Notes: generated by a model not told the origin, from the sequence alone. A DNA stretch of 64,000 nt from Planctomyces sp. (GCA_016795105.1 JAEUIH010000007.1:124001-188000), one strand, 5' to 3'. Shown: positions 862 to 56,231, counted from the first letter of the stretch. Numbers and translations are program-made.

Positions 862-2343
862 CTACACCGTGCTCGTAATGATTTCGGGGACAACCTTGCC
901 ACCTCGACTGTTAGTTATGATTTGCGGCTGACCATTGTGATGGAAGATCAGCTTCTCATGGTCCAGTCCAAACAATCTCATCAGCGTTGCCTGATAGTCG
1001 TTTGGTGTGACGACGTTCTCGACGGCCTTATGACCGAATTCATCCGTCTGCCCAAACGTCATTCCACCACGAATTCCGCCGCCAGCCATCCAGATGCTGA
1101 ATCCCTGGCCATTGTGGTCCCGTCCCGCAGCGTCTGAATTGCCCTGTTCCTGGGTTACCGGCAACCGTCCGATCTCTCCACCCCAGTGAACAATTGTCGA
1201 ATCCAGCATGCCGCGCTGTTTGAGGTCCTTAACAAGAGCTGCGGATGGCTGATCTGTCTTGCGACAGATTCCCGGCAAAGATGTCTTAATGTGACTATGG
1301 TTGTCCCATGGCTGCCCTGAATGAAACAGCTGAACAAACCGAACCCCTCGTTCTACGAGGCGTCGAGCAATCAGGCAGCGTGTTCCGTACTCTTTGGTTT
1401 CATCCCGATCAATACCATACATCTTCTGAGTTGCTTCCGTTTCCCCGCTGATATCCAGAGCTTCTCGAGCCGCTGTCTGCATTCGAGCTGCCAGTTCATA
1501 GCTCGCAATACGGGCTTCCAGATCGGACTCGCCTGGATGAGTCGCGAGGTGTCGACGATTGATCTGGTCCAGAAATGCGAGGCTGCGATCCTGTAGGCTG
1601 CCTCGCAGATGTGATGGAGGATCCAGATTGAGAATTCGAGGTTCTTTCGGCCTGAGCACAGTGCCCTGAAACAGCGAAGGCATGAAGCCGTTTGACCAGT
1701 TCAAAACACCATCAACCGGATGCCCACCCGGATCCGTCAGGACCATATATGCCGGAAGGTTCTGGCTCTCTGTGCCAAGCCCATAGACGAGCCACGACGC
1801 AAGATGAGGCCTCCCGGTGACGCCCGGTACCCCACCATGGAAATACCGAATCGAAACCTCATGTCCGTTTGCCCCGGTGTGCATGCTGCGAATCAGACAC
1901 ACATCGTCAACGATCTCACCAAGGTGCGGCAATAACTCTGACAGCTCCGTCCCACACTGACCGTACGGTCGAAATTTAAACGGGGTACCCAGCAACTTCT
2001 TGCTGGCCTGATTCACAAAGCTGAAGTGAATCTCGCCGGGATAGTCCGTCCCGGATCGCTTCGAAAGTTCGGGTTTCGGATCGGTGAGGTCCATATGCGA
2101 TGGACCTCCATGCTGAAACAGCGAAATCATTGCACGAGCCGTCGCAGGATACGGACCACTTTTGGGCTTCAGGTCAATGACCGGCTTGTCCTTTGGCAGT
2201 GCAGGCGGCACGGCCCGACCTTCTTCCTGGGCCAGCAGCCATGCCAGGGCGACCGATCCGATACCCATCGCATTTTGCTCGAGGAAGCTCCGTCGACTCT
2301 GAAGACACTGAACCGGGGCGGAATATGTATTCTCTGATGTCAT
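862..2343 (-). CDS. DUF1501 family Tat-exported protein
   Basis: This 493-residue protein belongs to DUF1501, a family in the alkaline phosphatase/sulfatase fold superfamily that is abundant in planctomycetes; its substrate is not established. The N-terminus has a twin-arginine signal (SRRSFLEQNAMG). Family landmarks are FQHGGPSHMDLTDPKP, IRSMHTG, RCLIARRLVERGVRFVQL, HWGGEIGRLP and GRDHNGQGFSIWMAGGG. The start at 2343 is chosen because GGAGG sits 9 bases upstream, just past the stop of the preceding PSD1 gene (2363-2365), so the two are translationally close. It is the last gene of a three-gene operon. HWGGEIGR differs slightly from the WGGEFGR form more common in the family. Confidence 0.9.
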   Translation of the reverse strand: MTSENTYSAPVQCLQSRRSFLEQNAMGIGSVALAWLLAQEEGRAVPPALPKDKPVIDLKPKSGPYPATARAMISLFQHGGPSHMDLTDPKPELSKRSGTDYPGEIHFSFVNQASKKLLGTPFKFRPYGQCGTELSELLPHLGEIVDDVCLIRSMHTGANGHEVSIRYFHGGVPGVTGRPHLASWLVYGLGTESQNLPAYMVLTDPGGHPVDGVLNWSNGFMPSLFQGTVLRPKEPRILNLDPPSHLRGSLQDRSLAFLDQINRRHLATHPGESDLEARIASYELAARMQTAAREALDISGETEATQKMYGIDRDETKEYGTRCLIARRLVERGVRFVQLFHSGQPWDNHSHIKTSLPGICRKTDQPSAALVKDLKQRGMLDSTIVHWGGEIGRLPVTQEQGNSDAAGRDHNGQGFSIWMAGGGIRGGMTFGQTDEFGHKAVENVVTPNDYQATLMRLFGLDHEKLIFHHNGQPQIITNSRGGKVVPEIITSTV

Positions 2344-2362
2344 GCTTTTAGTCCTCCGACGG

Positions 2363-5300
2363 TCAGTCCACGTAAAGAAATTCATTCGAAGTCAGCAATG
2401 TATGACACAGGTTGATCATCGCTTCCTGATAAACGTCTCGACCATCGGGAAGCCTGATACCATGGAGTCCGATTAACTCCACCTGATCGCGAAGGAAGTC
2501 GACCGACAGCCTGACTTCTTCCGGTAGAGGCTGTCTCCCGTAAGCCAGCTGCCATGCCCTGACAATCTGTCCCGGCAGCGAAGACGGCGATGTGACAGGA
2601 CCGCCAAATCCTGTTGCTGATGAAAAGACACGATCCGACTCTTCAGGGACTCGGAAGGTGAGCGAAACAGTCCACGTAAACGAGTCAGACGTGATGTTTT
2701 CTCGGCAGTCAACCACCATATCAATCGTATCACCGGCCGTCACTTCAACCTGGCTGACTCCGGTTGAAACGCTCCCATTGAATGCATCCCACGAACCTGT
2801 CAGCCCTTTGGAAGAACTGACTATGCGTCCGCGAACTCCATCTCCATTCGGACTGCTGTGCATCAGACTGCCTGTGATTGTCAATATTCCGTCTTTTGGG
2901 GCAGTCCACCGCCGAATAACACTTCGCTCTGCCGAATCCGGATGACCTCCGTCCGCACGAAGAAACGCATAACCTATCCCCGGATCAGGGACCTGCTCTC
3001 CGCCCTGCCACGTACTTCCAGTCCATTTCGGGAACGGCGTAAACTGATCAACACGTTGACTCTCTTCGTTGATTCGACCATATCCGTAGGACCATGTCGC
3101 TGACACGGGCTGCGGCAGAACAGAAATGGCAGTCGCCTGTTCCGGAGAAAGCGTCGCAGGCTCGGACGCACATCGGTCCATCAACGTCCTCGCTTTTTCG
3201 AACATCGTTTCTGAATTCATCAGCATGAGAGACTGAGTTGCCACGGTCGAAACCGGACGCATTTCACAGTTCGTTTCCATCACCGGAGCATCAAATGCCT
3301 GCAGCATGGCAACGGGACGACTTCTGCGAGACTGAATATAAAGGCTTCTGCGTGTCTGACCAGGATCCACAATCACCTGTCCGGTTTCATCTTCCTGCAC
3401 CGCAATCGGCGGGCCAAACATGGTGGTGTCGAGCTTTCCGTTAACTGTCAACAGTCGATCCCGAAGAATCTCTGCATCAAGTCGCACCATACTGCGTCTC
3501 GAATACCAGCGATTGTCCGGATCCAGCTGTTCATGGACAGGCGTTCGCTTTGTGCTCTGCTTCCATGCGGATGAGGTAAGAATTACGCGATGCAGATGCT
3601 TTAGACTCCAGCCATTCGACATGAATTCGTCGGCCAGCCAGTCCAGAAGCAGCGGATGCGTGGGCTTTGCACCAAGCACGCCAAATTCACCTGGGGTCGC
3701 AACAATGCCCCGACCGAAATGGTGAAGCCAGAATCGATTGACCAGCACTCGTGACACCAGGGGATTGTCTCTGCCAGTCAGCCAGCCGGCAAACGCGAGC
3801 CTGCGCCCTGAAGTCGGTACCGATTCATCATCCACAGGAAAGAACACAGGCCGGTCTTCCGGCGTGGCCACTGTGAGTGCCGCAGGCATCACAACCTGTT
3901 TGGGCTGAAGAAAATCGCCACGATGAAACAGGCGTGTCTCGGGAGGTGCAGCCGCTGGCTCAGTGAGAATACTGAGAAATTCTTCCTTCGGCCGCTGTGC
4001 CTGCACTTCCGCAATTTTCGCGTCGATCTTTTTGAGTTCTTCCGCGGCCTGTGGCAAATACTGATACAGAACACCAGGAGAAATATTCACACTGGGGTAG
4101 CTTTCCAGCAGCATCTTTTGGGCTTCATCCCGCTTGTCTGCTGCCGTCTCATACGCATTTCGCAGCTGTTCACGCAGGCCGGGCTCATATTTCATGAGTT
4201 CAATATCAAGGGCCTGCTTCATATATTCTGACTGCTTAACCGATCTGTCAGCTGCAATCTTTTCCACCTCAGCAGCAACTTCCTGAGCTCGCGCCCGATC
4301 GGCTGCTGTGTAGAGGGAAATCAAACGCTCAGGTGGTGTCTTCCACTGCTGATAGTTGAACGCCGGAGCAAACACTGCCCGCATCGCAAAATAGTCGGTT
4401 TGCGGAATCGGATCATATCGATGGTCATGGCACTGAGCACACGCCATACTCATTCCCAGCATCGATGTGCTGACAATCTTGATCGTATCGGCAATCACCT
4501 GGTTTCGGCCTGTATCGTCGTTTGCTCCACTCCCGGTTCCATCGGCTGCATTGCGGAGAAAGCCGGTCGCGGTCAGCAGTTCAATCTGCTCGGCAGTCAT
4601 GTCGCCCTGAATCGGGCCTGCAAGTTCATCGCCGGCAAGCTGTTCGGTAATAAAGCGATTGATCGGTTTGTCGGCATTCAGCGATCGAATCACATAGTCG
4701 CGATACTTCCATGCCCAGGGACGTTCTGCATCAGCTACCGTAAACCCATCGGAGTCCGCGTAGCCAGCAACGTCCAGCCAGTGACGTGCCCATCGCTCAC
4801 CATAATGAGGTGATTGCAACAGTTCTTCGACCAGGCGTTCATACCAGTCCTGTGATGGTTCTGAGATCCAGCGATCCATCTGCTCCACAGTTGGCGGTAG
4901 TCCCGTTAGATCAAAATAGAGTCTGCGAATCAGTGTTGGGCGGTCCGCCTCTTCAGCGAAACTTAGTTCAGCAGGCATCTCCGCAAGCAGAAACGCGTCA
5001 ATCGGGTTTGCGACGCGCGGCTGTTTGTCGACAGCAACAACCGGTGGCTCTGGACGAATAATGGGCTGAAAGAACCAATACGAACGTTCTTCCGGAGTGA
5101 GACCGATCCCGGGAGGAATCTGATCCGGCTCAGGTCGAAGAGTGGGAGCTTTTTGCTCCAGCCATGTACGTATGGTCCGGAGCTCTTCCGGCTTTAAGTC
5201 CGTGTTGCCGGGGGGCATTTCGCCTGATTCAATCTTCTGCAGCAGAACGCTCTCGAGTGGTTTTTCCAGATCAATTGCAGGCCCTGAGTCCCCCCCCTTA

Positions 5301-5518
5301 TGCATCAGGCGAACCTGCCGCAAGTCAAGGTTTCCGCTCAGTTCGTCATGTGCTCCATGACAATCAAGGCAATGTGCCCGCAGAATTGGGCGAATGTCTT
5401 TCTCAAACGAAAGCACTTGCCCCAACGATGAGTTCTCCGGCTGCTGAGCAGGAACCGTGGCTGAGAAGATTGCAAAACAATACAACGCGGAAAATGCGCG
5501 TGAGAGAGTCATACTCAT
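2363..5518 (-). CDS. PSCyt1/PSCyt2/PSD1 (DUF1549-DUF1553) secreted cytochrome-domain protein
   Basis: This large exported protein has 1051 residues. A Sec signal peptide covers residues 1-25 (hydrophobic core to VPAQQ). A planctomycete cytochrome C domain follows, with the haem motif CLDCH at 50-54 and MPPG near 101. DUF1549 spans roughly 172-375 and carries a second CxxCH (CAQCH, 360-364). DUF1553 covers the C-terminal half (DNPLVSRVLVNRFW near 600, GRQPLPEEV near the end). Residues of about 810-965 are not typical of DUF1553 and look like an inserted beta-sandwich (YAFLRADGGHPDS, GILTITGSLMHS). The start at 5518 has GAGGTG 5 bases upstream. It lies between two DUF1501 genes and is probably co-translated with them. 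Haem attachment and extracytoplasmic location are inferred; the reaction is unknown. Confidence 0.92.
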   Translation of the reverse strand: MSMTLSRAFSALYCFAIFSATVPAQQPENSSLGQVLSFEKDIRPILRAHCLDCHGAHDELSGNLDLRQVRLMHKGGDSGPAIDLEKPLESVLLQKIESGEMPPGNTDLKPEELRTIRTWLEQKAPTLRPEPDQIPPGIGLTPEERSYWFFQPIIRPEPPVVAVDKQPRVANPIDAFLLAEMPAELSFAEEADRPTLIRRLYFDLTGLPPTVEQMDRWISEPSQDWYERLVEELLQSPHYGERWARHWLDVAGYADSDGFTVADAERPWAWKYRDYVIRSLNADKPINRFITEQLAGDELAGPIQGDMTAEQIELLTATGFLRNAADGTGSGANDDTGRNQVIADTIKIVSTSMLGMSMACAQCHDHRYDPIPQTDYFAMRAVFAPAFNYQQWKTPPERLISLYTAADRARAQEVAAEVEKIAADRSVKQSEYMKQALDIELMKYEPGLREQLRNAYETAADKRDEAQKMLLESYPSVNISPGVLYQYLPQAAEELKKIDAKIAEVQAQRPKEEFLSILTEPAAAPPETRLFHRGDFLQPKQVVMPAALTVATPEDRPVFFPVDDESVPTSGRRLAFAGWLTGRDNPLVSRVLVNRFWLHHFGRGIVATPGEFGVLGAKPTHPLLLDWLADEFMSNGWSLKHLHRVILTSSAWKQSTKRTPVHEQLDPDNRWYSRRSMVRLDAEILRDRLLTVNGKLDTTMFGPPIAVQEDETGQVIVDPGQTRRSLYIQSRRSRPVAMLQAFDAPVMETNCEMRPVSTVATQSLMLMNSETMFEKARTLMDRCASEPATLSPEQATAISVLPQPVSATWSYGYGRINEESQRVDQFTPFPKWTGSTWQGGEQVPDPGIGYAFLRADGGHPDSAERSVIRRWTAPKDGILTITGSLMHSSPNGDGVRGRIVSSSKGLTGSWDAFNGSVSTGVSQVEVTAGDTIDMVVDCRENITSDSFTWTVSLTFRVPEESDRVFSSATGFGGPVTSPSSLPGQIVRAWQLAYGRQPLPEEVRLSVDFLRDQVELIGLHGIRLPDGRDVYQEAMINLCHTLLTSNEFLYVD

Positions 5519-5534
5519 AGGTGCACCTCGCAGT

Positions 5535-6908
5535 TCAGGCCGAAGCACTGATCAGTTCTCTGACAGGACGAGCATCTTCAGGAAGTATGCGGACCGGCCT
5601 GTCGGTCTGATCCCGAATGTAGTTTTCTGTATCGATGCCCAGATTGTGGTAAACGGTTGCCAGCACGTCCCGATAATGGATCGGGCGATCAGCAGCATAG
5701 GCCGCCGTCTTATCTGTTGACCCTATCACCTGTCCGGTTGGCATCCCGCCGCCCGCCAGCAGCGCCGACTGAACTGGAGCCCAGTGATCCCGACCGGCGT
5801 TGGCATTGATCTTCGGTGTACGACCGAATTCTCCCCAGACGACGACCGTGACATCCTGATCGAGACCTCGATTGTAGATATCTTCTACGAGAGCAGAGAT
5901 GCCGGTATCCAGTGTCGGAAGATGCTGTTTGAGATGTCCGAAGTTATTTCCATGTGTATCCCAGAACCCATACGCAACAGTAACCACTCTGACGCCGGAT
6001 TCCACAAGACGGCGAGCGATCAGCAGTTGATCGTTCCACATCGGGGCTCCGTCACCGAGATGTTTTGACGAACCACGTCCGTAGCGTTCTCTGACCCTGG
6101 AGTCTTCCCGCTCGACATCCATCGCATCCACCAGCTTGCTTGAAGTCAGTACTTCGAATGCACGCCGATAGCTTTCTTCCATATTGTCAAGGCTCTGATT
6201 GTCCGCCTGACGACGGTACCCATCGAGCTGACCCAGTAAGTCGCGACGGCTCGCAAACTGAGGAGCATCTACAAATCGCAATTTCATGCTTGCCAGATCT
6301 TCACCATCCGCACGCACCTGGTTGTAAGCGCTTCCCAGGTAACCGGCGCCAGTACTGTTGTACGGCTTGTGCTGCATCGTTGGAAACAGGTCGACAAATG
6401 GCGGAGTTACAGAATCTGTTCCGCCCTGGACTCGAGATACAACCGAGCCAAAGTGGGGCAGCTTGTCGCGCTGCACTTCTCCCATCGTAAACCCGGTCAT
6501 GTTCTGAAAACTTGAATGCTCATCTCGCTGCCCAACGATCGATCGAATTACCGACAGCCGATCGGCGACACCAGCAAGCTTCGGCAGCATCTCACTGAAT
6601 TCAATACCCGGGACAGACGTTGAAACCGGTCGGAATTCGCCGCGAACCTCGGCGGGGGCATTGGGCTTCAGATCAAAAGTATCCTGATGAGGAAGCCCAC
6701 CGGACAGATACACCATAATCACCGACTTCTGAAGTCGCCGACCTGTCCCTTCAGCCGCCAGCAAATCAGGCAGACACAGACCACCGACGCCAAGAGCGCC
6801 GATGCGAAGCATCGTGCGACGCGGGATCCCATCGCAAAATTGTTTCGAATCTGAGCGAGCAGAATTCCGGAGCGCAGGACTTAAATGGGCAGGACGTTTC
6901 CACATCAC
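5535..6908 (-). CDS. DUF1501 family Tat-exported protein (operon-leading)
   Basis: This 457-residue DUF1501 protein has a twin-arginine signal (RRTMLRIGALGVGGLCLPDL). Core motifs are VYLSGGLPHQDTFDLKPNAP, VIRSIVGQRDEHSS, LIARRLVESGVRVVTVAYG, WDTHGNNF, VVWGEFGRTP and AGRDHWAPVQSALLAGGG. It is the first gene of the operon; its stop at 5535 lies 17 bases before the PSD1 start. It is clearly not a recent duplicate of the DUF1501 at 862-2343: the two differ in spacing throughout and represent two DUF1501 subtypes in one transcription unit. Enzymatic activity is unproven. Confidence 0.92.
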   Translation of the reverse strand: MMWKRPAHLSPALRNSARSDSKQFCDGIPRRTMLRIGALGVGGLCLPDLLAAEGTGRRLQKSVIMVYLSGGLPHQDTFDLKPNAPAEVRGEFRPVSTSVPGIEFSEMLPKLAGVADRLSVIRSIVGQRDEHSSFQNMTGFTMGEVQRDKLPHFGSVVSRVQGGTDSVTPPFVDLFPTMQHKPYNSTGAGYLGSAYNQVRADGEDLASMKLRFVDAPQFASRRDLLGQLDGYRRQADNQSLDNMEESYRRAFEVLTSSKLVDAMDVEREDSRVRERYGRGSSKHLGDGAPMWNDQLLIARRLVESGVRVVTVAYGFWDTHGNNFGHLKQHLPTLDTGISALVEDIYNRGLDQDVTVVVWGEFGRTPKINANAGRDHWAPVQSALLAGGGMPTGQVIGSTDKTAAYAADRPIHYRDVLATVYHNLGIDTENYIRDQTDRPVRILPEDARPVRELISASA

Positions 6909-31515: not shown

Positions 31516-32200
31516 ATGAGACCTGCCACACACGGGTGGATCGCTGTTTGCACATTGACTTTGATCTTTGGCCAGCAACTTTCGCACATCACGGGAGGAC
31601 TGTTGTGTTCCGACGAGCCACAAGAACGACAGATTTGTCAAGGTCACGATCCCGACGTTGAAATCACAGTACCTACCTCAGGTGGTCTGTCAGCAGACTG
31701 GACTGAACGGCGATACAAGCCTGCCGACATCTGGGGGGTATCAGCCGGTCAGAAAACCTGCAACTGACGTTGCTGGGTCTCCGGCAATCGATGAGTTGAT
31801 CAACGACAAAATACCTGCAGATTTGACAATTGCTCCGCGAGCAGATCGTCGAACCCTGATTCGCAGAGCAACCTTCGACCTCACCGGGCTTCCGCCTTCA
31901 ATGGCTGAGGTGTCAGAGTTCCTGCGGGATTCGCGTTCAGATCAGGAAGCGTTTTCTGCCATTGTGGATCGTCTATTGCAGTCACCCCACTACGGTGAGC
32001 GAATGGCTCAGCACTGGCTCGATATCGTTCGTTATGCTGACTCATCCGGATTTGCGAATGACTATGAGCGTGGAAACGCATGGCGTTATCGTGACTACGT
32101 GGTGCGTGCTTTCAACAGCGACAAGCCGTTCAATGATTTTGTGCGTGAGCAGATCGCTGGAGACGAAATTGATCCTGCCAACCCGGAGGTTCTTGCCAGT
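31516..32200 (+). pseudogene. Decayed PSCyt/PSD1 gene fragment
   Basis: A signal-peptide-like start (MRPATHGWIAVCTLTLIF at 31516) runs in one frame to a six-G run (31733-31738). The homologous protein continues in another frame as GGYQPVRKPATDVAGSPAID, then TLIRRATFDLTGLPPSMAEV, SPHYGERMAQHWLDIVRYAD and FVREQIAGDEIDPANPEVL, all DUF1549. The PSCyt1 haem domain is missing, the middle and DUF1553 are gone, and DUF1549 stops near 32200 where DUF1501 sequence is joined in frame. So there is a frameshift plus at least two deletions. Confidence 0.85.
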
Positions 32201-33459
32201 CGGGAAACTCAGGATGACGACCCACAAGCCGAACAAGCTGCTTCAGCCAATTCTCTGCAACCTCGCAGGGCTCACTTTGAGGCAAAGGCTGTGAGCTGTA
32301 TTTTCCTGATGATGGAAGGCGGCCCATCGCACATCGACACGTTTGATCCCAAGCCCGCTCTGGATCGACTGAACCTCAGCGAATTCGTCCGCGAAGGAAA
32401 GACAAAATCAGCGATGGAGAGTGGGCGACGTTACTACGTTCGCAGCCCGTTTCGATTCCGGAAGGTCGGCAAGTCAGGCGCCGACATGGCCGAAAACTGG
32501 CTCCACCTCGCTGAAGTCGCCGACAATCTCTGTTTCTTCAGAGGCTGTCAGGTCAGCAGTGTCAACCATCCAACAGCCATGTATCAAATGAACTGCGGAA
32601 ACCAGTTCGGCGGTGATCCGTCGATTGGTGCATGGGTCACATATGGGTTGGGATCAGTGAATCAAAATCTTCCGGGGTTTATTGTATTGCCCGAAGTGTC
32701 ATGGCCCCAGGGAAGTGCTCCAAACTGGGGTAATGGATTCCTGCCGGCATTCTTTCAGGGTACACCACTGCGGACTACCGGCAAGCCGATTCTCGATCTC
32801 AGTCCGCCTCGAGGAGTGACTTCTGTGCTCGTATGGCCGCCTATGAACTTGCCTGGAAGATGCAGACAGGGGTTCCCGGTCTTGTGCAGCTCGATCAGGA
32901 AACAGAAATGACTCAGAGAATGTACGGCATCGGAAATGCTGAAACCGACTCTTTTGGCCGGAAATGCCTGATGGCTCGAAGGCTTGTCGAGAAAGGTGTT
33001 CGTCTTGTTCAGTTGTACCACGGGTCCTGGGATAGTCATGACTATATCGAACGAGTACATGGCAATTTGATTCAGTCGGTTGATCAACCCATTGCCGCAC
33101 TCATTCGCGACCTCAGAGAACGTGGATTGCTGGATTCAACACTAATCGTCTGGTGTGGAGAATTTGGCAGGACACCAGACAATGGCATCCGGGGCGGTAC
33201 CGCCTATGGCCGAGACCACAACCCCAATGCGATGACAATCTGGATGGCGGGCGGTGGATGTCGAGCAGGCTCGACCATCGGAGCAACCGATGAGTTGGGG
33301 ATGACCGCCGTTGAAGGCGTTGCTCACGTCAGGGATTTTCACGTGACACTGCTGCGACTCCTCGGAATCGACGACAACCGACTCACGTACTATCACGCCG
33401 GTCGATTCAAGCAACTCAGTCAGTTCGGTGGACAGATCATTGACGAACTTCTGGCCTGA
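32201..33459 (+). pseudogene. Decayed DUF1501 gene fused to the PSD1 fragment
   Basis: DUF1501 sequence without its Tat signal begins after an Ala/Gln-rich junction (FLMMEGGPSHIDTFDPKPAL). It runs to LDLSPPRGVTS near 32820, is broken by a frameshift with loss of roughly 35 residues, and resumes as AAYELAWKMQTG, YGIGNAETDSFGRKCLMARR, IVWCGEFGRTPDN, YGRDHNPNAMTIWMAGGG to a normal end at 33459. The intact paralogue at 862-2343 has the missing helix between these points. Large open frames remain, so the decay looks fairly recent. Confidence 0.85.
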
Positions 33460-49452: not shown

Positions 49453-50088
49453 GTGCCACTCACTGATCTGGATCGAAAACTACTCAGTGAACTTCTTGCC
49501 GGTCAGGCGGGGTCATGGAAGATCTTTGTGGATCGCTTCACCGGCTTGATTGTTCAGGTCATCCAACAAACGGCCCATGCTCACAGTCTTCGGTTGAACT
49601 CTGATGATATCGAAGACCTTTGTGCCGACACTTACGCCGAACTGTTGTCTCGAGATATGGCAGCACTGCGCGCGTTTCGTGGTCGTTGCTCATTTGCGAC
49701 TTATCTCGCCGTGATTGTTCGCCGGATTGTTGTGAGACGCCTGACTGAACAGCGATTTCGCCAGGCACTCGGTCACGTAAGTGCTCATTCTTCGTCTCTT
49801 GAAATGGCAACGTCTGATCAGGTTGAAGTGACTCAGGTAGACGCGAGGGACCAGGTTCAATCCCTCATGGCAACCCTGCCCGAACGAACTCGGAATCTCC
49901 TGAAATACCTCTACCTCGAAGGTAAGTCCTATCAGGAGGCAGCTACATTACTCGGCCTGTCCCTCAACTCGATTGGCGCCGCCGTTTCACGATTGCGCGG
50001 CTTGCTGTCGAACAGTTCACCCGCAATGGCAACGTCCCCTGCCGGCCGGCCATTGAATTCTCGAAAGCGTCGACCACCCGTCGCCTGA
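49453..50088 (+). CDS. ECF-type RNA polymerase sigma factor
   Basis: This 211-residue sigma-70 family protein has region 2 (FVDRFTGLIVQVIQQTA, DDIEDLCADTYAELL, FRGRCSFATYLAVIVRR) and region 4 (LPERTRNLLKYLYLEGKSYQ, then EAATLLGLSLNSIGAAVSRL as the HTH). The start is GTG at 49453 with GAGG 6 bases upstream. The tail is basic and Ser/Pro-rich. There is no anti-sigma gene beside it; its regulon is unknown. Confidence 0.88.
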   Translation: MPLTDLDRKLLSELLAGQAGSWKIFVDRFTGLIVQVIQQTAHAHSLRLNSDDIEDLCADTYAELLSRDMAALRAFRGRCSFATYLAVIVRRIVVRRLTEQRFRQALGHVSAHSSSLEMATSDQVEVTQVDARDQVQSLMATLPERTRNLLKYLYLEGKSYQEAATLLGLSLNSIGAAVSRLRGLLSNSSPAMATSPAGRPLNSRKRRPPVA

Positions 50089-50573: not shown

Positions 50574-50894
50574 ATGATGAAGTCTCTCTGGAATGATGAA
50601 GCAGGTGTTATCCTGTCCGCTGAGCTGGTCCTGATTGGTACCATTCTCGTCCTTGGCATGATCGTTGGACTTGTCGAACTGCAGTGCTCTGTCGTTGCTG
50701 AACTCAGCGACCTCTCGAGCGCGTTCGGCAACCTGAGTCAGAGCTACCAGATTTCTGGTTTCGCGAGCTCAAAGGGTAACAACCAGTTCAAGGCACGCAC
50801 TTTCGGAGCATCCTACACAGATCAGGCGGACACCTGTGACTGTGACGCAAACATGAGCATCGTTTGCACCGACCCAGGCGAAGTTCGAAAGTAA
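50574..50894 (+). CDS. Small single-pass pilin-like protein
   Basis: The predicted product has 106 residues. A short charged leader (MMKSLWNDEAG) is followed by a 22-residue hydrophobic helix (VILSAELVLIGTILVLGMIV) and a soluble part with three C-terminal cysteines (TCDCDANMSIVC). The leader-Gly-helix layout with a Glu at about +6 resembles Flp/Tad or TadE-like prepilins, where Glu is at +5. Processing by a prepilin peptidase is inferred. No tad genes are in the window. Confidence 0.65.
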   Translation: MMKSLWNDEAGVILSAELVLIGTILVLGMIVGLVELQCSVVAELSDLSSAFGNLSQSYQISGFASSKGNNQFKARTFGASYTDQADTCDCDANMSIVCTDPGEVRK

Positions 50895-50997: not shown

Positions 50998-51996
50998 TCA
51001 GGCCGGTTTTGCTTCAAGCCGAGTGATTCTCACGTGCTTGTCGTGATGAGCGGTTGCGACCTGTATGCCGTCGCTGTGCAGGTCCATGTCACGTGCAAGA
51101 TTTGGCAGCTGAAATCGGTGATAGTCCTTCTCCATGTCCGGCTTCCAGAACAGGAGAAATCCACCGTTGCCGCCACCGGTTACCCCCATCACAGATCCAT
51201 CGCTCAGCCACCGCAAATTCCAGATCACACCCTGAGTGATGCCTTCCGCGATCAGACTTTTTTCGAGAGTCTGGTTCTCCCAGTTGAAAATCAGAACCAG
51301 TGGCTCATGGACTGCTCCCAGTGGATTACTGGCTTTGTGCAAACCGCCCGCCGCCAACTTCTTTCCGTCCGGGCTGACAGCCAATGCCCGAACTCCGCCA
51401 AAGTCTACCTGCTGACCACCATTATAAGAGTACAACGGAGCAGCATCGAACTTTCGTACTTCAGTCCCTGTTTCCACTTCACACTGCCGAATGACTCCAC
51501 CGAGGTCACCACTCAGCAGGAACTTTCCCGTTGGATCAAATGTCACGGAATAGACATGTTTCTGATGTCCTGGGAATTCGCGAATGAGACTTCCGTCGCT
51601 TCCATTCCACAGACGCACCATCAGATCATTGCCGGAACTCGCCAGCAGTTTTCCATCGGGACTGACGGCGAGTGATCGAACCCACTGTGTACCATGTGCC
51701 TGAATCGACCGAATCGGCGCAGGATTCTCGGCTGCCACTTCCCACCATGTCAGCTTTCCGTCACATCCACCGCTGACAACAAAGTTGCCTGCATCAGGAA
51801 ATGCAAAGGTATTCACCCACGTAGAATGTCCCCCGGCCAGAATCGTTTTTACACCGTCTGAGATTCTGAAGCGTTCAATGACAGCGTCTTCGGAACCACA
51901 AAACACATACTGACCTGTGGGATCAAATCGACACGAAATCAATGGTCTGTCATGAGCCCACTGAGCAGCAACATAAGCGGCTTTGGGATCCATCAT
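50998..51996 (-). CDS. WD40 repeat protein
   Basis: This 332-residue beta-propeller has about six or seven WD40 blades, for example PLISCRFDPTGQYVFCGSED, STWVNTFAFPDAGNFVVSGG, WVRSLAVSPDGKLLASSGND, HVYSVTFDPTGKFLLSGDLG and VRALAVSPDGKKLAAGGLHK. No signal peptide is visible, so it may stay in the cytoplasm or be moved with a partner. It overlaps the DUF1501 gene by 4 bases and is the last gene of the PSD1/DUF1501/WD40 unit. Confidence 0.9.
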   Translation of the reverse strand: MMDPKAAYVAAQWAHDRPLISCRFDPTGQYVFCGSEDAVIERFRISDGVKTILAGGHSTWVNTFAFPDAGNFVVSGGCDGKLTWWEVAAENPAPIRSIQAHGTQWVRSLAVSPDGKLLASSGNDLMVRLWNGSDGSLIREFPGHQKHVYSVTFDPTGKFLLSGDLGGVIRQCEVETGTEVRKFDAAPLYSYNGGQQVDFGGVRALAVSPDGKKLAAGGLHKASNPLGAVHEPLVLIFNWENQTLEKSLIAEGITQGVIWNLRWLSDGSVMGVTGGGNGGFLLFWKPDMEKDYHRFQLPNLARDMDLHSDGIQVATAHHDKHVRITRLEAKPA

Positions 51997-53282
51997 GTCA
52001 GCAATCCTTCAATTGGTTTCGATGAAGGATCTGCGATTGGCATTTCTCGTCCATCGATGTTGAAGTTCCCTGTGGAGTCAACTCCGACTGACTGAAGGTA
52101 CGTATGGAACAGGTTTCCGTGGTCAACCTGTCCTTCAACAACTTCCGTTCCACGTTCATTCGTGGCTCCAAAAACAGCGCCTCGCGGCATACGGCAGCCC
52201 GCCGTACAGACCGACCATGCCCGTGACCAGTGGTCACGTCCATAATAGAGGTTAACATTGGGGGTTCGTCCGAATTCGGAAAGCACAACGATCAGGGTTG
52301 AATCCAGCATTCCTCGGTTCGCAAGGTCCGCGACAAATGTTGAGAATGCGCGATCGAACTCACCCATTTGCTCAATATGGAAGTTGAAGTTCTCATTATG
52401 TGTGTCGTAGTTTGAGTGTGACACCTGAACAAACGAAATGCCGTTCTCAAGCAGTCGACGTGCAAGCAGGCAATGCCGCCCCAGATCATGCTGTCCGTAT
52501 CGTTCCGTTTCAGAAGCCGGTTCTTTCGTAACGTCAAACACATCTCGTTGACGCATGAGTTTGTCGGCCTGCTCGTACGAATAAGCAAAGGCCTCAGTGA
52601 CCGCGGTTCGGCGACGATTCAAAAACCTCTCAGTCACCCGACGGCGAAAATCCTGACGTGCGGCGTCCGACTGTTCGGAGAGATTTTCTGGTCGAACCGT
52701 ATTTGGCGGCGGATTGCCGTTTCCGAGCTGTACGCTTGAAAACTTGGGTCCAAGCCATGCGGAGTCATTTCCACGCCCGCCGCCTCCGCCCGGAGTAATC
52801 ACAATGTGGCCCGGCAGCCCGCTGTCTTCCGGCGACAACGTCTTCGCAGCAACCGCGCCCAGTTGAGGAAACTCTCCGGCTGGTGTCTGTCGCCGACCCG
52901 TCATCATCAGATAGGCGCCCTTCCCGTGATCGTCTTCACTGGTATTGACCCCGCGCAGCAGGCAGAGGTGGTGCATCTGCTGTGCAGTCAACGGCAGAAG
53001 CTCACTGATATGGATGCCCGGCACCGACGTGGGAATCGCAAGGAACGGTCCTCCAGTATCAACTCCCGGCTTGGGATCCCAGCTTTCAAGCTGGCTCAAT
53101 CCTCCATGCATATTGAAGACCACGATCCGCTTTTGTTGAGACCTGAGTGTCTCGCCGAAAGCAGCTGGATTACACAGTCCGTATCCGCCTGCAATCGCCG
53201 CGGCTCCAGCTGCGACACCGCGGAGGAATTGTCTTCGCGCAACTCCGTGCTCTGCAGTCCGGCAAGGGTAGTTCAGTTTCAT
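51993..53282 (-). CDS. DUF1501 family protein with probable Tat signal
   Basis: This 429-residue protein begins with an ARRQFLRGVAAGAAAIAGGY signal (twin Arg). Motifs are VFNMHGGLSQLESWDPKPGV, LLRGVNTSEDDHGKGAYLMM, ITPGGGGGRGND, LGRHCLLARRLLENGISFVQ, YDTHNENFNFH, VVLSEFGRTPNVN and YGRDHWSRAWSVCTAGC. The start at 53282 has GGAAGGA upstream. It is 18 bases after the PSD1 stop and coupled to the WD40 gene by a 4-base overlap. Confidence 0.92.
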   Translation of the reverse strand: MKLNYPCRTAEHGVARRQFLRGVAAGAAAIAGGYGLCNPAAFGETLRSQQKRIVVFNMHGGLSQLESWDPKPGVDTGGPFLAIPTSVPGIHISELLPLTAQQMHHLCLLRGVNTSEDDHGKGAYLMMTGRRQTPAGEFPQLGAVAAKTLSPEDSGLPGHIVITPGGGGGRGNDSAWLGPKFSSVQLGNGNPPPNTVRPENLSEQSDAARQDFRRRVTERFLNRRRTAVTEAFAYSYEQADKLMRQRDVFDVTKEPASETERYGQHDLGRHCLLARRLLENGISFVQVSHSNYDTHNENFNFHIEQMGEFDRAFSTFVADLANRGMLDSTLIVVLSEFGRTPNVNLYYGRDHWSRAWSVCTAGCRMPRGAVFGATNERGTEVVEGQVDHGNLFHTYLQSVGVDSTGNFNIDGREMPIADPSSKPIEGLLT

Positions 53283-53300
53283 CGTAGTACATCCTTCCAA

Positions 53301-56231
53301 TCAGTGATTGAATCGAAATTCAGCGCTGTTGAGCAATCCCCACATCAGCTCCTGAGCAACCTGAGCACGATCAGCGGCACCTTCAAGTGCCGCTGTAACT
53401 TCAGCAACTTCTTCTTCAGCCGGCATCCTTGACAGGATCCCCAGATACAACTCTTCAGCCGCCTTTCGCGGATCCGTCGCTTTCACCATTCGCTCACTGG
53501 CATTGTCGCCCGCAGGTACGACCCAGCTGTTGATCTGACCGGCATTCGAGGTGAACAGTGCCTGATCTGCACTTGCATAGAAGTCTCCCTGAGGCTGTCC
53601 TGCACCACCGCCATAAAACTGAACGTAGGTTGGAATGTACTGCTTCAGCTTGTCATAGACTCTCTGCTCAATTTCCTGTTCGCGAGTCGCCATGACGCCC
53701 GCATCATTTCTCTGTTCGTCCGTCAAGGGAGCTGCCTTATCCAGCTCGACTCTCTCACTCGCAACGTACCTGTCGTAAACGGTTGTCACTCGAAACACCG
53801 ACCAGCATAGCTGCTCCGGTGACAATGGCCGCAGTGTTGAGAGTTGAAAACGATTTGAGAAGGACGAAGCCAACACGTGTGACATAGAGTCCAACCGTCC
53901 CGAAGTCTCATCCATTTTTGTCTTCTCGACATTGATCGCCGCAACTGCAATTTCTATTGCCTGCTGTGACTGACTCAATGCAGTTTGAGCCGTCTGCATT
54001 TCTGACTTCACGGTTTCGAGTCGTGCAGACGCAACACGATGCATCTCGGTCATCGTATCACATTCCTGTCGACACTGATTGAGAAGGGTCTCCATCCGCG
54101 ACAACTGACCAACAGCCGCAAGCCGTGTTTGCGACAACCCTTCGTCGGCCGGAACAAACTGAGTTGCCGCATCCAGCGAACGGGCTGCATCCGCGACCAA
54201 CGCATAACGCTGTTCACTGACCGCCAGCCGCCCGGCAGCTGCTTCCATTGAACTGAGTACTGTCCCCAGCTCCTTTTCTGCGACCTGCATCCTGTCGGCG
54301 ATCGCTGTCATTGCCAGTGTACTATCATCAATGGATTTCTTCAGCTGCTGCTGTTCAGACTCGAGTCGCTGAAGAACAAGCTCGGCACCTTCGACTTCGC
54401 TTCGCACCGCAAGGTAGCTTCGGACTTCCTGATTGAGCTGCATCTGATTCTTCAGGTCTGCAACTCGCCAACTGGCTTTCTGCAATTGCCCGCGGGCCTC
54501 AACTCGTGCTACGTCAGTGCGACTGAGCTCCGACCGAAGTGGGGAGAGTTTCGCCTGGGCGGCTTCAACGGTCACTCTCTGTGTGGCGAGAAGATCTTCA
54601 ACCGGCTTCACTGCGGCCGCCTTTTCGTCTGCGGCCGCCTGAAGTGCTGGCAGCTCCGCGGTAACCTGTGCCGCTCGTTCACGGAGCTTCCCAGCAATCA
54701 CCGCCAATTCAGGATCAGCCGACAGGAGCCCTGCCGCTGTTTCAGCATGCGTTGCAGCTGCCAGAGCCTGGTCGGCTGTCGATCGTTTTGTCGTTACAAT
54801 GCCGGCTGCGTCGGCTGCTGCCTTCCGAGCTTCCGTCAGTTTCTTCCAGGTTTCAGCGTACTGTCCGCGGACCGTTTCGAACTCCGTCGAAACAGGAATC
54901 AACGCAGCTTCAGCAGCATCGAACGCTGTGCTGGCCGCAGAGTATTGATCGTTGGCAGCCCTCGCAGTCCGCTCCGCATCTTCGAGGCGAACCTGCATTT
55001 CTTCACCCGCCTGAGTCACGATCGCTGGTTGCGATACGCCAGACTCCTCAAAGTCGAAGGCACGCTGATAGGTCCTTGTAAGTACCAGTTCTTTCAGAAA
55101 CCAACGAATGTCGTAGCCAGACGCACAGAAGCGTGTTCCGAGTTCATCAAGAAACGTTTCGGCAGGCCCTGCATTGTCCGGATGAAGCATATCCAGGGGA
55201 TGCATCACTCCGCGACCAAAGACAACAGACCAGAGGCGATTCGCGGCGTTTCGATTAAATGCAGCATTCGAGCCATCCGTCAGCCGTTCGGCAAGAAGCT
55301 TGCGGCGGCTAAACCGAGGAACAGCCTTCACGCCGTCGGCAGGAGCCACATCGTACTCCTCGCCTGGCAGGTAGACCGGCTCATCGATCCAACCCGTCCC
55401 AGGCAATCGTGTTCCGGTTCGATGCGGTGTCCCGCGGGCAAACACAGATTCAAATGTCAGATCGGTTCCGGCTCGCTCAGACAACACCGTCACATCCTTG
55501 TCACCGTGTTTGCGAACGACCGTATACATTGGAGACGTAAAGGCGAGTAATCCCTGATAGTCGGCCTGGAGAAAATCTGAGACAAGTGGTGAATCGTGGC
55601 ATTGAGCACACTGGAGGTCCATCCCAAGAAACATCCTGCCAATGTCCCGAGCGACCACATTGGGTTCCGCTCCGCGATCAAGGATAAAGCGAGCTGGAGC
55701 GCGGTTGGCCGGATCATCTCCGTCAGCAAGAATCATCTCACGAACCAGCTGGTTCCAGGGTTTATTGGAACGGACGGAAGACATCAGCCAGGCAATCCAT
55801 TCATCCTGCGAGACCAGCGTGTTCGGTCTGCGTTCCATCAGCATCACATCCAGTGTAAGCGCCAGATGTCGTGTATGAACCGCCGATGCCATCAGTCGAT
55901 CAACCAGCAGTCGACGTTTGTCCGCAGTCGTATCCGCTGAGAACGATCTTGCATCATCCGCGGTCGGTGGCATCCCTGTCAGGTCCAGAGATACTCTTCG
56001 AATGAATTCCGTGTCATTACACAGCGGACCATTCTCGGAAGCCGAACCAGTGGCCAGCCGCCCGTCGATCCATTGAGCCAGCGAAACGGATTCATTGCCC
56101 CCTTCTGCAACCACAGCAGAGTCTGGATTGTCGTCCCCCAGAACACGTTGGGCTCCGAACTGGATTGCCGAAACCAGTGCGAGGAGTCGCACGAATCGGA
56201 ACAGAGACGGCTCGAGACTCAGGGTACGCAT
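53301..56231 (-). CDS. PSD1 (DUF1549/DUF1553) protein with long coiled-coil insertion
   Basis: This 976-residue exported protein has an N-terminal signal-like helix, then DUF1549 (FIRRVSLDLTGMPPTADDAR, MFLGMDLQCAQCHDSPL with CxxCH near 208) and the start of DUF1553 (NRNAANRLWSVVFGRGVMHP, WFLKELVLTRTYQRAF). Residues of about 405-780 are a heptad-rich coiled coil high in Ala, Glu, Gln and Lys. The DUF1553 end then returns (LRPLSPEQLCWSVF, ELYLGILSRMPAEEEV, LLNSAEFRFNH). No separate PSCyt1 domain is present. It is the first gene of a three-gene unit. A rod-like extracytoplasmic scaffold is inferred. Confidence 0.9.
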   Translation of the reverse strand: MRTLSLEPSLFRFVRLLALVSAIQFGAQRVLGDDNPDSAVVAEGGNESVSLAQWIDGRLATGSASENGPLCNDTEFIRRVSLDLTGMPPTADDARSFSADTTADKRRLLVDRLMASAVHTRHLALTLDVMLMERRPNTLVSQDEWIAWLMSSVRSNKPWNQLVREMILADGDDPANRAPARFILDRGAEPNVVARDIGRMFLGMDLQCAQCHDSPLVSDFLQADYQGLLAFTSPMYTVVRKHGDKDVTVLSERAGTDLTFESVFARGTPHRTGTRLPGTGWIDEPVYLPGEEYDVAPADGVKAVPRFSRRKLLAERLTDGSNAAFNRNAANRLWSVVFGRGVMHPLDMLHPDNAGPAETFLDELGTRFCASGYDIRWFLKELVLTRTYQRAFDFEESGVSQPAIVTQAGEEMQVRLEDAERTARAANDQYSAASTAFDAAEAALIPVSTEFETVRGQYAETWKKLTEARKAAADAAGIVTTKRSTADQALAAATHAETAAGLLSADPELAVIAGKLRERAAQVTAELPALQAAADEKAAAVKPVEDLLATQRVTVEAAQAKLSPLRSELSRTDVARVEARGQLQKASWRVADLKNQMQLNQEVRSYLAVRSEVEGAELVLQRLESEQQQLKKSIDDSTLAMTAIADRMQVAEKELGTVLSSMEAAAGRLAVSEQRYALVADAARSLDAATQFVPADEGLSQTRLAAVGQLSRMETLLNQCRQECDTMTEMHRVASARLETVKSEMQTAQTALSQSQQAIEIAVAAINVEKTKMDETSGRLDSMSHVLASSFSNRFQLSTLRPLSPEQLCWSVFRVTTVYDRYVASERVELDKAAPLTDEQRNDAGVMATREQEIEQRVYDKLKQYIPTYVQFYGGGAGQPQGDFYASADQALFTSNAGQINSWVVPAGDNASERMVKATDPRKAAEELYLGILSRMPAEEEVAEVTAALEGAADRAQVAQELMWGLLNSAEFRFNH

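Follow-up and report, generated by a model that had tools for sequence, protein, structure and literature searches.

Three minus-strand genes at positions 50998-56231 of a 64,000-nucleotide stretch of Planctomyces sp. DNA (hereafter the window) encode a haem-motif PSCyt2-PSD1 protein, a DUF1501 protein and a WD40 propeller. Do these products belong together, and do they work on the same side of the membrane? A preliminary description had proposed a possible new surface system, with a coiled-coil rod reaching from the membrane or wall and the propeller as a binding platform.

The three genes form a conserved unit in planctomycetes

Open reading frames and Pfam searches confirmed the domains and the tight packing described previously. 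The first gene (53301-56231) encodes a 976-residue PSCyt2 (DUF1549)-PSD1 (DUF1553) protein with a helical insert, delimited by its frame, Pfam matches and full-length homologues. The DUF1501 gene occupies 51993-53282; its open frame extends to 53300, the likely ATG being at 53282, 18 bases past the stop codon of the first gene. The WD40 gene (50998-51996, 332 residues, no signal peptide) has an ATG overlapping the DUF1501 stop by 4 bases. These 18-base and 4-base spacings were not kept in other loci; the gene order was. The unit ends downstream at a pilin-like gene in convergent orientation (50574-50894, plus strand); on its upstream side come a gene on the same strand that matches nothing in Pfam and one for a PMT-type glycosyltransferase. 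The pilin-like product is small, has a hydrophobic N-terminal segment and resembles a type IVb (Flp-like) pilin. Also downstream is an ECF sigma factor gene (49453-50088, plus strand), which does not recur beside other units. Rfam searches of the locus returned no match, and promoter and terminator scans differed little from shuffled sequences.

Coil-bearing, full-length homologues of the first protein were found in about 18 of 40 related genomes. Each of the 17 loci with room for it had DUF1501 immediately downstream, and WD40 came next in 14. A wider scan of 84,980 species genomes yielded 80 loci, most of them with full-length homologues and some overlapping the 40-genome set. Nearly all are from planctomycetes; the few listed under other organism names are probably mislabelled MAGs. 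In this set, DUF1501 was directly downstream in 70/73 loci with room and WD40 was next in 51/65 testable loci, so that the recurrent order anticipated for other planctomycete genomes was borne out. An all-against-all comparison of flanking frames revealed no other gene family recurring in many loci. When 392 genomes were sampled evenly across the phylum, a match at E < 1e-140 was found in 29, and 28 of these belong to the window's class. Long-coil forms make up about half of the 29, shorter relatives the rest. Carrier genomes have about one coil-bearing unit each; cultured carriers include Singulisphaera acidiphila, Lacipirellula limnantheis and strain Pan216. DUF1501 and WD40 are likewise present in units that have no coil. 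The three genes are a conserved planctomycete unit, beyond chance neighbours.

The haem-motif protein is a predicted exported protein with a split PSD1 domain

PSCyt2 (PF07583) matched residues 68-233 (55533-56030, minus strand as are all features of the unit) with an E value of 1.4e-30 and 107.3 bits against a cut-off of 29.8. The domain contains a CAQCH haem c motif (CxxCH; residues 208-212, 55596-55610), in which C208, C211 and H212 were invariant across 18 aligned homologues. A Sec-type signal region covers approximately residues 1-32 (56136-56231), and a strong hydrophobic N-terminal segment precedes the conserved domain in 72/76 homologues. Both observations support the export of a haem-motif protein, as first proposed.

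The PSD1/DUF1553 profile (PF07587) matched residues 309-435 by its N-terminal half only (E 3.7e-17; 63 bits, cut-off 28.5). Pfam and homologue alignments place this half at residues 309-396 (55044-55307), and the C-terminal half, which ends with EFRFNH, aligned with relatives at residues 800-976 (53304-53834) in the alignment of 18 homologues. No PSCyt1 match was found on the 976-residue protein. A match to S-adenosyl-homocysteine hydrolase (E 0.012) was discarded as it was below its cut-off and mostly within the coil, and a Foldseek search with the whole model returned nothing at E < 0.2.

The insert is predicted to consist of two tandem helical hairpins

The coil lies inside DUF1553, where it had been placed at a length of about 375 residues; the AlphaFold model gave a longer helical insert of about 390 residues (402-793), where coil-free relatives have a linker of about 25. 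In this model (18 sequences, mean pLDDT 84.8), helices 402-502, 507-539, 541-692 and 697-793 are interrupted by breaks at 503-506 and 693-696. Mutual information across 74 sequences indicated antiparallel pairing around two centres, 504 and 696, at roughly 5 sd above background, whereas a single long hairpin centred near 598 reached just 1 sd and was rejected. Charge covariation taken alone was weak. On the model and the covariation, the insert is best described not as one rod but as a tandem of two antiparallel hairpins, both about 14 nm long; what stands of the earlier proposal is a rod-like coil. Hairpin 1 would span residues 402-598 approximately (54438-55028, tip 503-506) and hairpin 2 residues 599-793 (53853-54437, tip 693-696), with arms of about 96-101 residues corresponding to about 14-15 nm. 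Helix 541-692 belongs to both hairpins and, judging from these helix boundaries, they should therefore point opposite ways from the core.

All four arms had a heptad period of 3.46-3.52 residues. This periodicity far exceeded that of shuffled sequences, which argues against the coiled coil being a chance reading. Matches of the insert to SMC, Rad50, myosin and tropomyosin were attributed to generic coiled coil and not to homology. Both tips carry the near-identical consensus LPDDxELAAAxxK, which suggests that the hairpin was duplicated. Among 74 long homologues, 53 have an insert of exactly 403 residues and 67 one of 401-404 residues. Despite this constancy the insert is the least conserved part of the protein (1.56 bits per column versus 2.79 in the core), suggesting that length itself matters. 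Residues 607-791, within the second hairpin, superposed on the helical hairpin of RipA with 2.6 Å over 185 residues. The predicted antiparallel hairpins are similar in size to those of the envelope proteins RipA (N-terminal domain), EnvC and PcsB; this likeness of modelled structure is a resemblance of common fold and no proof of kinship.

Close relatives (for example those at L061, L166 and L168) have nearly contiguous PSD1 halves, about 25 residues apart, and retain DUF1501 and WD40; inserts of intermediate length (about 110 to 270 residues) occur in L050 and L151-L154. A quick tree was built from DUF1501, a protein free of the insert. It grouped the WD40-linked units in a single clade (SH-aLRT 97), inside which all coil-bearing units formed a clade of their own (SH-aLRT 97). 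Given this nesting, the unit is older than the coil, which was most likely gained once.

DUF1501 has a predicted alkaline-phosphatase fold with an altered metal site

DUF1501 (PF07394) was matched with an E value of 4.2e-91 (306 bits, cut-off 27). The RR motif at residues 16-17 was invariant in 27/27 homologues, supporting the earlier assignment as a Tat-type protein. In structure comparison, NPP phosphodiesterases scored best (Z 18.5) and sulfatases followed closely, Z being about 17-18.5 over the two groups with approximately 240-270 residues aligned, and Foldseek matched an alkaline-phosphatase-type fold with an E value of 9e-8. In line with this fold, a weak Pfam Phosphodiest match and weak sulfatase matches of the DUF1501 profile were found. 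The modelled DUF1501 protein thus belongs to the alkaline-phosphatase/sulfatase superfamily by fold. The Asp-His-Gly (DHG) metal-site motif of sulfatases reads Glu-Phe-Gly-Arg-Thr (EFGRT) in DUF1501, and the usual Asp-Asp ending of the first strand is absent; activity cannot be assumed because of these two changes. Invariant positions include D293, H295, E336, D350 and H351. A planctomycete NPP-like family (L203-L213) has Ser-Glu-Tyr-Gly at the sulfatase Asp-His-Gly position, near the Ser-Glu-Phe-Gly of DUF1501, and both may possibly have this altered site in common.

The WD40 propeller is probably cytoplasmic

Pfam identified five WD40 repeats in the 332-residue protein (E 7.5e-38). Its open frame in the window is 336 codons, which leaves about 4 to spare before the start. 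Of 54 WD40 homologues, 26 had under 20 open codons ahead of the conserved start, and just 1/47 had a hydrophobic N-terminal stretch. As there is no room for a signal peptide, the propeller is probably cytoplasmic, which goes against the proposal that it forms an external binding platform.

The WD40 proteins of coil units formed one clade (98). A close relative (E <= 1e-68) was present in 18 of 19 coil-bearing genomes, the 19th having a weaker one, and most unit-less genomes had none; these are raw counts that ignore kinship. Free-standing WD40 paralogues exist in many genomes. According to the WD40 tree, several lineages lost the unit's own gene, and in one lineage it was moved elsewhere. Six coil-unit genomes have no adjacent WD40 gene: it was relocated in two (G125 and G143, the latter with a stop codon in the gene), only a free-standing paralogue was present in three, and the sixth (G008) was outside the tree placement. 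The idea that all six genes had been relocated was dropped, the tree showing only two such cases. In one lineage (L164, L165 and L041), the WD40 gene lies about 2 kb beyond DUF1501, and in L041 a 708-codon frame is found in between.

PSD1 is probably related to DUF1800, and parts of the unit have been described

Pfam DUF1800 (PF08811) reached its cut-off on two PSCyt2-PSD1 relatives; it was not among the matches of the window's 976-residue protein at E values up to 1. Using hhalign, the coil-free PSCyt2-PSD1 alignment could be matched to that of DUF1800 along 182 columns reaching the C-terminus (Prob 80%, E 1.4e-5). The coil-bearing alignment gave a weaker match (Prob 21%), and controls against DUF1501 gave 0.5% and 0.1%. 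By these profile comparisons, PSD1 and DUF1800 appear to have a C-terminal domain in common. DUF1800-DUF1501 pairs, some beside chitin synthase, are known in Proteobacteria (PMC5122149) and, together with the PSD1-DUF1800 match, suggest that the exported PSCyt2-PSD1/DUF1501 pair is the planctomycete form of such a pair. Common to the two arrangements are a Tat-type DUF1501 protein and, beside it, a partner with a C-terminal domain that can be aligned to PSD1. DUF1800 proteins are not known to come with PSCyt2, a haem motif, a coil or a WD40 partner.

PSCyt2-PSD1 (DUF1549-DUF1553) proteins are known from the work of Studholme et al. on Rhodopirellula baltica (cited in PMC2754498 and PMC5615132). 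The protein studied here resembles those of Planctomycetes in both domains, the CxxCH motif, the export signal and the DUF1501 neighbour; in contrast, it gives no PSCyt1 match, its PSD1 domain is split by two predicted hairpins and WD40 follows downstream. Genomic clusters containing DUF1501 were reported in PVC bacteria (Kamneva et al. 2012, as presented by the citing papers PMC4452313 and PMC4960237), and those citing accounts point to the same association of DUF1501 with exported neighbours. WD40 genes adjoining DUF1501 genes in Planctomycetes were reported as a trend (PMC5587647); the adjacency is the same, but that trend is not known to have been tied to PSCyt2-PSD1, a coil or a clade. 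To the extent that these sources describe them, DUF1501 clusters and WD40-DUF1501 adjacency were already on record (PMC4452313, PMC5587647), so that "possible new system" was too strong a term and the unit is better regarded as a variant of the PSCyt2-PSD1/DUF1501 kind.

An exported pair with a cytoplasmic accessory is the preferred reading

We favour the view that the locus encodes a derived form of the planctomycete PSCyt2-PSD1/DUF1501 pair, made of an exported pair and a cytoplasmic WD40 accessory. We give this mechanism as a whole a probability of about 0.45, and hold the anatomy of the unit with much higher confidence. The PSCyt2-PSD1 and DUF1501 proteins would work together beyond the cytoplasmic membrane, their target being a polymer or ester that is either periplasmic or extracellular. 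DUF1501 would provide a hydrolase or transferase site, possibly an altered one, and the haem-motif protein may be its scaffold or redox partner. Joined by one continuous middle helix (541-692), the two 14 nm arms would make up a crossbar about 27 nm long and place the core roughly halfway along it, a geometry drawn from helix boundaries and covariation. Such a crossbar could act as a clamp or as a spacer of fixed length, set between, for instance, membrane, wall or polymer. Inside the cell, the propeller would be an accessory, either a regulator or a handler of the Tat substrate DUF1501 before its export.

The fixed gene architecture had been taken as a sign of one complex. The order is indeed conserved and two of the three proteins appear to be exported, in line with a cell-surface complex that has the propeller as external platform on a rod. 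This arrangement is nevertheless improbable, since the propeller has no possible signal peptide in the window or among its homologues and since WD40 was repeatedly lost or moved; coil-free units with DUF1501 and WD40 also weaken the step from fixed architecture to one complex. A somewhat doubtful, yet more credible alternative is that the genes are co-expressed without encoding one machine: PSCyt2-PSD1/DUF1501 would work outside and WD40 regulate independently inside, joined by shared regulation. The separate compartments, the solitary WD40 paralogues of many genomes and the incomplete retention of the unit's own WD40 would all fit, but the coil-unit WD40 clade parallels the DUF1501 clade, indicating long co-inheritance of one particular partner.

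A different question is whether any catalysis takes place. The EFGRT residues at the metal site and the strongly fixed rod length would suit a DUF1501 pseudoenzyme in a purely structural unit (an envelope spacer or adhesin-like). We consider this unlikely, given that D293, H295, E336, D350 and H351 are invariant, as expected of a kept metal site, and that the haem motif is invariant too. The exported pair with a cytoplasmic accessory could be extended to a trans-envelope machine, in which a haem-bearing 27-nm crossbar would carry the alkaline-phosphatase-fold partner and a dedicated cytoplasmic propeller would prepare or gate this Tat-exported partner across the membrane, DUF1800-DUF1501 pairs representing the simple form; we put this forward as a long shot.

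PSCyt, PSD1 and DUF1501 genes represent a large share of planctomycete coding capacity. For this unit, specific predictions can be made: a fixed-length double hairpin, an alkaline-phosphatase fold and a cytoplasmic propeller. Through the PSD1-DUF1800 link, findings in Proteobacteria would bear on Planctomycetes and vice versa.

Other PSD1 and DUF1501 genes in the genome

The genome containing the window (8.9 Mb) has about 94 PSD1 places and 126 DUF1501 places. A unit-type WD40 gene directly behind DUF1501 was found at only two of them, the window and a coil-free unit at C22:43331-47422. Elsewhere in the window, a minus-strand region at approximately 876-6728 contains DUF1501 at 877-2139 and 5550-6728 and PSD1 at 3140-3805, with no unit-type WD40 neighbour. 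At 31568-33459 on the plus strand, a broken gene has an N-terminal PSCyt2 part running directly into a DUF1501 protein, and the latter is split by a frame change (frames of 447 and 208 residues); this looks like a decayed PSCyt2-PSD1/DUF1501 pair.
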